NCBI RefSeq assembly: GCF_021531475.1
Contig: NZ_JADYTX010000007.1
Location: 1-64,000 of the forward strand
DNA length: 64,000 nucleotides
Direction of reading: 5' to 3'
Source: Fusobacterium perfoetens
Lineage (GTDB): Bacteria > Fusobacteriota > Fusobacteriia > Fusobacteriales > Fusobacteriaceae
This document shows, one piece after another, positions 20,508 to 21,867 of this stretch (positions within the stretch are counted from its first letter, which is position 1; every line of letters begins with the position of its first letter). A program made the translations under genes and the position numbers. The notes beneath the pieces were generated by a model. The model saw nothing but the letters and a program-made list of their open reading frames with translations. It had not been told where the DNA came from and made no database searches.

Positions 20508-20584
20508 GATTCTGTAGCTCAGTTGGATAGAGCGACGCCCTCCTAAGGCGTAGGTCACGCGTTCAATTCGCGTCAGAATCGCCA
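20508..20584 (+). tRNA. tRNA-Arg (anticodon CCU)
   Basis: This 77-nt tRNA has acceptor stem GATTCTG/CAGAATC, D-arm GTAGCTCAGTTGGATAGAGC, anticodon arm ACGCC-CTCCTAA-GGCGT with anticodon CCU reading AGG, T-arm CGCG-TTCAATT-CGCG, discriminator G and encoded CCA. It is a single gene with its own promoter and terminator. Confidence 0.97.
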
Positions 20585-20598
20585 CTCAAAAAATAAAC

Positions 20599-20627
20599 AA
20601 AGATGTTGATTTTGGTCAACATCTTTT
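20599..20627 (+). terminator. Terminator of tRNA-Arg
   Basis: AAAGATGTTGA pairs with TCAACATCTTT, then TTTT. It starts 15 bases after the tRNA CCA. Confidence 0.88.
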
Positions 20628-20696
20628 TTGTGGATTTTTATTGAAAAATATGATATATTAAAGCTTATGAATAAATAAAAATCAGGAGGAAATAAT

Positions 20697-20750
20697 ATGA
20701 ATGAAAAAACTCAAAAAATAATGGGGGGGGGGGGTCGTATAAATCCTTAA
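20697..20750 (+). CDS. Phase-variable leader ORF before acyltransferase (OFF form)
   Basis: An ATG with a strong AGGAGGA site seven bases upstream opens MNEKTQKIM, then runs into a 12-G tract. As sequenced, the frame ends after 17 residues (stop at 20748). If the tract gained one G or lost two, the frame would stay open for 41 codons. It would then end in TAA at 20819-20821, which overlaps the ATG of the acyltransferase (TAATG). The exact overlap suggests translational coupling. The peptide is not recognised and may act only in cis. Confidence 0.5.
   Translation: MNEKTQKIMGGGGRINP
20723..20734 (+). repeat. Poly-G tract, 12 residues
   Basis: Twelve consecutive G residues in a region otherwise under about 25 % G+C. 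It lies ten codons into a short ORF directly before an O-acyltransferase gene. Homopolymeric G tracts of this size are typical slipped-strand contingency loci. Confidence 0.9.
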
Positions 20751-20820
20751 AAAATAATCGCTTAAAGAGAAAAAATATATTAATAAATATATTACCTTTC
20801 CAAGAATGGAGGGGTAATTA

Positions 20821-21867
20821 ATGAAAAGAGAGAATAATATTGATTTTTTAAAAGTTGTATCATCTATTATGGTAATTATGACCCATATTTCAGCTTATTG
20901 GGTAGGAAAATATTTGGAGGTTGATAGTTATAAATTTTCAGTTGGAAATTTTTGGGATACTTTGTCAAGAGTAGCAGTACCAATTTTTGTAATGATAGCT
21001 GGAAGATATGCTCTTTCTGATGATAGAAATGAAAATTTTAAAAATTATTATAAAAAGATTTTTAAAAGAATTTATATTCCTACGATAATTTGGAGTATAT
21101 TATATGTAAGTTATAATTTTTCCCTAAAAATATTAGTAATTTTTATTAAAGGAAAAGAGATAGATTTATTATCTCCTATAAAGGATTTTATTTTAGGAAG
21201 ACCTTTTTATCATATGTGGTACCTTTATATGATGATTGGAGTTTATCTATTAGCTCCATTTTTGATAAAATTTAAGAAAAAATACGGAGAGAATAAATTT
21301 TTTAAATTAGGAATAATTTTTATGTTTATAGGATTTGGAATAATTCTTTTAGAAAAATATTTAGGAAAAATCAATTTTTATGAGAGAGATGATATTTTTA
21401 GATATTTAAAATATTATTGGTATTTTTCGCAGTTTAAATTTATAAATTTTATAGGATATTTTATTCTTGGTTATTCTTTAAGAAATAAAAAAATAGATAC
21501 AAAAAAATCATTATTAATATATTTATTTTCTTTAAGTTCTCTTTTTTTAATGGTAGAGAAAACAAGAATAAGTGAATTTAACTACGATAATAACTTTATT
21601 TTTGTAATTATTGGAGCTGTAAGTTTATACTTGTTTTTTAATAATTTAAAAGTAAATTATGATTTTTCAAAATTAGAGAAACATACTTTTAATATTTATT
21701 TAGTTCATGCAGGAATAATAAGTGTAATTTCTTTATTTTTAGATGAAATATTAAATTATGAACCAAATCCAATTTGGTATATACCTTTTGCTATAATTTT
21801 AGTATTTATTTTATCACTTATTTTTTCCATTGTTTTAGAAAATATTTTAAAGAAGATAAAAAAATAA
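20821..21867 (+). CDS. Acyltransferase 3 family membrane protein
   Basis: This 348-aa integral membrane O-acyltransferase has about ten hydrophobic segments. The N-terminal RENNIDFLKVVSSIMVIMTH, ending with the conserved histidine, is the acyltransferase-3 signature, followed by an arginine-containing second helix region (VAVPIFVMIAGRYAL). Family members acetylate surface polysaccharides, LPS or peptidoglycan. The gene has its own GGAGGGG site six bases before the ATG, so it may be translated at a basal level without the leader ORF. Because the ATG overlaps the stop of the poly-G leader ORF in the ON frame, surface modification could vary between cells. A bidirectional terminator follows. Confidence 0.87.
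   Translation: MKRENNIDFLKVVSSIMVIMTHISAYWVGKYLEVDSYKFSVGNFWDTLSRVAVPIFVMIAGRYALSDDRNENFKNYYKKIFKRIYIPTIIWSILYVSYNFSLKILVIFIKGKEIDLLSPIKDFILGRPFYHMWYLYMMIGVYLLAPFLIKFKKKYGENKFFKLGIIFMFIGFGIILLEKYLGKINFYERDDIFRYLKYYWYFSQFKFINFIGYFILGYSLRNKKIDTKKSLLIYLFSLSSLFLMVEKTRISEFNYDNNFIFVIIGAVSLYLFFNNLKVNYDFSKLEKHTFNIYLVHAGIISVISLFLDEILNYEPNPIWYIPFAIILVFILSLIFSIVLENILKKIKK

Follow-up and report, generated by a model that had tools for sequence, protein, structure and literature searches.

The window, i.e., the whole 64,000-nt stretch of Fusobacterium perfoetens DNA analyzed here, is part of contig C7 of an AT-rich 2.0-Mb genome. A membrane acyltransferase gene is found in it directly downstream of a short leader ORF that contains a run of 12 G (Table 1). 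The Acyl_transf_3 profile match of the acyltransferase scored 112.8 bits (curated cut-off 31) and covers residues 5-336, corresponding to profile positions 2-325 of 326; no solved structure was matched by sequence. The tRNA gene 5' of the leader is followed by an inverted repeat (20596-20629), which reads as its terminator. The original prediction had described the 12 G, the leader frames, the TAATG overlap and the Shine-Dalgarno (SD) sequences. These observations held base for base, and the adjoining tRNA gene that it had named was also confirmed.

Table 1. Features of the leader and acyltransferase region (positions in the window).
Feature	Position	Strand	Remarks
tRNA-Arg(CCT)	20508..20584	+	confirmed
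Possible extended -10 element TGaTATATT	20651..20659	+	by eye, weak; transcript start expected at about 20666
SD of leader ORF, AGGAGG	20684..20689	+	7 nt 5' of leader ATG
Leader ORF start codon ATG	20697-20699	+	read from sequence
12-G tract, putative slipped-strand site	20723..20734	+	8 full leader codons precede
Leader ORF, sequenced state (12 G)	20697..20750	+	17 codons; TAA at 20748-20750, 73 nt before acyltransferase ATG
Leader ORF span, coupled length class (+1 G or -2 G)	20697..20821	+	41 codons
Predicted RNA hairpin AUUACCUUUCCA-AGAA-UGGAGGGGUAAU	20791..20818	+	28 nt, 12 bp, -14.0 kcal/mol
SD of acyltransferase, GGAGGGG	20808..20814	+	within 3' arm of the hairpin
TAATG stop-start overlap	20819..20823	+	in one length class; sequenced class uncoupled
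Membrane acyltransferase, PF01757 Acyl_transf_3	20821..21867	+	348 aa; profile match E 2.3e-32

The tract begins (20723) with the third base of an in-frame ATG codon in the leader. With 12 G the leader peptide is MNEKTQKIMGGGGRINP followed by the stop codon. With 13 or 10 G the peptide becomes MNEKTQKIMGGGGSYKSLKNNRLKRKNILINILPFQEWRGN and the frame ends at the TAA (20819-20821) that overlaps the acyltransferase ATG at 20821. In the third length class the frame closes 81 nt 5' of that ATG. Tract length thus alters the reading frame of the leader and not that of the acyltransferase, 86 nt further downstream, and control of the gene would be via the predicted coupling. Runs of nine or more G are expected 0.02 times per window, and all four overlapping matches belong to the single tract at 20723-20734. 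When the 86 nt between tract and ATG were shuffled with dinucleotides preserved, an exact stop-start overlap in any length class had p = 0.028 and loose coupling in any length class had p = 0.092. Taken alone, the TAATG coincidence is therefore modest evidence: it hints at coupling and does not decide the matter. A promoter consensus scan listed no plus-strand promoter at 20651-20659, and the leader RNA did not match any known RNA family in Rfam. Transcription attenuation by the leader peptide was considered and rejected, as no plus-strand terminator-like site lies in 20735-20821 and the hairpin is followed by UAAUGAAA, without a U run.

The predicted hairpin ends three bases before the acyltransferase start codon. 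Its stability exceeds that of shuffled sequences with z -3.25 and z -3.6 in two computations. The background was a sample of 320 gene starts in 449 kb of the same genome (the window plus 20 stretches, about 385 kb). Among these, the acyltransferase SD ranks second in pairing (0.998) and the start region ranks third in folding energy. All folding energies in this work are predictions for naked RNA. The hairpin falls in the last codons of the 41-codon coupled frame, so only a ribosome of the coupled class would cross it. A hairpin that hides the SD is the anatomy expected of translational coupling; the hairpin is a model prediction, and the dependence of expression on leader translation is inferred. 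The original prediction had also held that the effect may be graded because the gene has its own GGAGGGG. That site is real, but it is predicted to be buried in the hairpin, which had been missed. With the SD almost fully paired and the anatomy described above, a graded effect is less likely than was proposed, and the switch would be nearer to on/off. In the same genome, two short genes (locus L117 near 17093 and locus L121 near 7505, minus strand) share a common start region, CCCCTCTCCTTTAAGGAGGAAC, the fold of which is more stable than that of the acyltransferase.

The acyltransferase gene is absent from six genus-mates and, among the genus genomes examined, is present only in this one. All six retain the neighboring PHP gene, with the tRNA beside it wherever the far side was read, and the acyltransferase gene therefore looks like cargo acquired beyond the tRNA. 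Homologs with 50% sequence identity carry no leader ORF; one of them (in G018) comes after a galU-like gene, as judged by eye. The comparison with close relatives suggested in the original prediction could thus not be made at the level of this locus. Acylation of a surface glycan is a possible function, inferred from the enzyme family and the neighbors only.

Five tracts of 10 to 12 G were found in this genome, including the leader tract. One (G000:C3:28404-28414, locus L117) places 11 G inside the ORF of an N6_N4 DNA methylase, which is one base out of frame. In another (G000:C11:28519-28528, locus L127), 10 G lie precisely in the spacer that separates TTGACA from TATAAT, and the operon downstream is chaperone-usher-like, with genes that resemble a chaperone, a pilin and an usher; from sequence alone the tract is inferred to be a textbook promoter-spacer phase switch. 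The remaining two (G000:C14:3149-3160 and G000:C62:865-874, both on the minus strand; loci L128 and L129) lie in paralogous small-RNA-like loci. A TTGACA/TATAAT promoter and a GGGTCTTTTT terminator end are conserved between them, and the tract, of 12 G or 10 G, falls within the RNA that each is expected to yield. No Rfam match was found for these two tracts, which may belong to length-variable regulatory RNAs. In the genus-mates, a 10-G tract is found in an MBOAT acyltransferase ORF (G002) and another in a hexapeptide acyltransferase ORF (G001), both out of frame, and the G005 assembly is broken by long G runs at a methylase-like gene. Family-wide, G tracts are located at TonB-receptor-like proteins, methylases, acyltransferases and promoters (gene families assigned partly by eye). 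From these positions we infer that G tracts in the genus and family usually serve to make surface and methylase genes phase-variable, although variation itself was not observed.

The layout of the leader was then used as a search pattern: a strong SD, about nine codons, a G tract, about 20 codons, a stop-start overlap in one of three length classes, and a structured start. In the family scan, 69 tracts of at least nine G were listed across 61 genomes and all were examined; the layout is present at two of them, the acyltransferase locus and a prophage late region (L137, in G078). In the prophage cassette nine codons lead into 11 G, and the coupled frame, of 26 codons, ends in TAATG. It precedes a 117-aa gene located between tail-fiber-like and endolysin genes, and the downstream SD and AUG lie inside a predicted 12-bp hairpin (-14.9 kcal/mol). 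Further cassettes were found in viral contigs, in tandem in L382 (four), L202 (three) and L359, L420 and L425 (two each), and singly in L389, L450, L385, L416 and L242. L202, L382, L359, L420, L425 and L389 are IMG/VR contigs. The phage scans were limited samples, and the tally of cassettes is an "at least" figure. One length class brings the leader stop to -4 to +7 of the next ATG in all 20 tabulated cassettes. The remaining classes close at least 25 nt short in 19 of the 20; the exception is L385, in which two length classes end near the start (+7 and +14). The cassette products include tail collar proteins (L382, L389 and L425) and a lectin-like LamG protein (L359). The tract-to-gene distance is 40 to 62 nt in the phage cassettes and longer, 86 nt, at the acyltransferase.

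Start regions of the cassette genes are predicted to fold more stably than those of other genes in the same contigs (median -17.1 vs. -8.9 kcal/mol, p = 6e-5, at equal GC). An individually significant hairpin is found in only about half of the phage cassettes, and L382 and L416 have none by shuffling. Coupled leaders were counted at 11 of 107 G tracts and at 0 of 98 matched C tracts (p = 8e-4). These 11 represent only about seven lineages, which makes the effective p weaker than this value. Under a looser selection (SD and G tract only), 12 of 55 usable leaders were loosely coupled. The shuffled expectation is high for some of them (0.10 to 0.79), and this count is therefore not used as proof. 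When viral contigs were searched for exact copies of the leader start, just two unrelated matches were returned, and no relatives of the prophage (L137) gene or the L202 genes were found elsewhere. L308, which first resembled a cassette, reads better as an intragenic tract and was excluded. The SD-hiding hairpin and the independent recurrence of the layout in a family prophage and in unrelated phage contigs, together with its absence from the C-tract control, were not foreseen in the original prediction.

In L202, L382, L359, L420, L425 and L389, G-tract cassette arrays lie before paralogous tail collar or lectin-like genes, and such arrays might constitute a tail-tip phase-variation system. 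In L382, L202 and others a CCTCC or CTCC motif directly follows the tract, with a stop codon close behind; the motif may help to close the leader or may pair with the SD in the off states.

Comparison of phage contigs indicated that the tracts differ in length. L359 and L420 are 90% identical over the array. Cassette 2 carries 12 G in L359 and 10 G in L420, the two contigs differ at cassette 1 by an indel beside the tract, and the predicted states are opposite at both cassettes. L675 carries 10 G at an L359-type leader for which L359 and L420 have 9 G. In L675 a leader of the L359 cassette type is also joined to the downstream gene of the other type. On this comparative evidence, which concerns phage cassettes only, it is likely that the tracts change length and that cassettes within arrays recombine.

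We consider it likely, with a probability of about 0.75, that the acyltransferase is governed by a translational contingency switch acting through the leader ORF. In the proposed mechanism, ribosomes load at the strong leader SD, and the poly-G tract would gain or lose G by slipped-strand mispairing during replication. Ribosomes would halt 73 to 81 nt before the acyltransferase in two length classes out of three (the sequenced 12 G belongs to one of them), leaving its SD closed in the 12-bp hairpin and the enzyme off or low. With 13 or 10 G, ribosomes would cross and melt the hairpin and finish at TAATG, where the same or a new ribosome may start the acyltransferase. The outcome, as inferred from the enzyme family, would be random and heritable variation in the acylation of a cell-surface glycan. 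If the assembly count of 12 G is right, the model predicts that the acyltransferase is off or low in the sequenced state. The tract, the frames, the overlap, the predicted hairpin, the placement of G tracts at variable-type loci of the genus and the recurrence of the layout in phages are established here. Every testable sequence-level prediction of the original contingency-switch reading was met and the reading is supported; tract variation at this locus and its effect on expression remain inferred. Several points speak against the switch: the strong GGAGGGG might be used each time the hairpin opens transiently, the 50% homologs of the gene lack the leader, the overlap taken alone has only the p value given above, and the spacing of 86 nt is long.

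The best-surviving alternatives, both considered unlikely, leave the leader frame without a role. In the first, the tract acts as an RNA element: a length-dependent small-RNA target, a ribosome standby site, or a competitor that frees the SD by pairing with CCUUUCC. In its favor, length-dependent regulation by a G repeat in an mRNA leader is known from H. pylori, as with RepG on tlpB (PMC8295292); poly-G is able to pair with the anti-SD arm (duplex -10.4 kcal/mol); and two G-tract small-RNA-like loci are present in the genome. However, the local hairpin is stronger (duplex -14.7 kcal/mol) and the predicted leader fold keeps it closed, and pairing of poly-G with the anti-SD arm was rejected as the main mechanism on these energies. 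The absence of an Rfam match for the leader also counts against this explanation, which leaves the stop-on-start placement in 20 of 20 cassettes unexplained.

In the second, the tract is unstable yet without function: translation of the acyltransferase starts from the gene's own SD at all tract lengths, and TAATG is a coincidence in an AT-rich leader. The strength of GGAGGGG, the modest overlap statistics (0.028 exact, about 0.09 loose) and the homologs without a leader are consistent with it. Against it, the SD is predicted to be almost fully paired, the layout recurs in other lineages and does not do so with C tracts, and the other tracts of the genus sit at classic kinds of phase-variable gene.

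It is very unlikely that the leader is an intragenic relic, left over from an older phase-variable gene of which only the 5' end survived when the acyltransferase took the place of its body, with coupling as a by-product. Several family members do have a G tract near the 5' end of long ORFs, and similar peptides follow such tracts (NGGGGSYLKRKSLLIL in the G002 MBOAT gene). Yet nothing homologous to such a gene body turned up near the tract, this origin would not account for the hairpin and the overlap, and short leaders are a stable design in the phage cassettes. An assembly artefact or miscounted homopolymer is likewise a very unlikely explanation. Illumina two-colour chemistry can yield false poly-G, and in one genus-mate 77 G stand at the end of a contig, but the tract of the leader lies in the interior of a 70-kb contig, its flanks are coherent, and the genome has four similar internal tracts. 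A miscount by one G is still possible and would alter the predicted state.

The translational switch through the leader ORF may be compared with known systems. Homopolymer switches within genes and in promoters are classic, and coupling with a hidden SD is textbook. In Neisseria pilC and the poly-G genes of Campylobacter, a homopolymer likewise lies near the 5' end of a translated frame and its length decides whether translation continues; pilC poly-G phase variation is a case of homopolymer-length control of a surface-exposed product (PMC13190605). Unlike these intragenic switches, the acyltransferase tract is in a separate short leader ORF, so that the product sequence never changes, and a second step, coupling with hairpin opening, would be added. 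In coupling with a hairpin-hidden SD that is opened by an upstream ribosome (criteria from PMC3711429), the stop-start overlap and the sequestered SD are the same as at the acyltransferase. Known cases of such coupling link a pair of functional genes or rely on a regulatory leader peptide, whereas the upstream frame of the acyltransferase would be a hypermutable switch. In Helicobacter pylori, a variable G repeat is likewise found 5' of a surface-glycan enzyme gene (tlpB-hp0102) and its length tunes expression. That repeat is bound by the small RNA RepG, and direct translational coupling was judged unlikely (PMC8295292). The acyltransferase repeat differs in lying inside a leader ORF with a strong SD rather than in an untranslated leader, and its predicted coupling depends on frame. 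Promoter-spacer homopolymer switches such as that of porA also give length-dependent expression, and a predicted one occurs in this genome at C11:28519. These act on transcription, in contrast to the tract at 20723, which is in a predicted translated leader and not between promoter hexamers. The open-access literature searched, which leaves out most subscription papers and all preprints, gave no description of a structured start gated by a hypermutable leader ORF. Within this limit, the novelty probably lies in the combination of a hypermutable leader ORF and a structured start, homopolymer switching and hidden-SD coupling being already known.

A bolder reading, to which we incline by a small margin, is that leader-ORF cassettes make up a class of translational switch that is general, modular and transferable, and in which a hypermutable G tract in a leader of about 30 codons gates a structured start by stop-start coupling. 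Alternative receptor-binding genes of phages would stand behind arrays of such cassettes, and a surface acyltransferase of a Fusobacteriaceae bacterium behind a single one. If this is true, phase variation can do without a repeat in either gene or promoter: any gene could be switched by a small leader cassette placed ahead of it, and could thereby be made phase-variable with its protein unaltered. Searches for tracts in genes and promoters would list such cassettes under intergenic sequence or short hypothetical ORFs. Placed before tail collar or lectin-like genes, arrays would provide phages with a simple mutational route to change the tail tip, and would stand beside inversion systems and diversity-generating retroelements.

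For the Fusobacteriaceae, the switch, if true, would be further evidence of widespread G-tract phase variation at surface-modification, methylase and pilus loci. No paper on G-tract phase variation in this family was found in the open-access literature searched. In the Leptotrichiaceae-like genomes G052, G096 and G044 (L330-L348), many G tracts abut TATAAT-like hexamers 20 to 50 nt before a TAATG. They are inferred, again from sequence alone, to be G-tract switches of the promoter type, at several loci in one genome.
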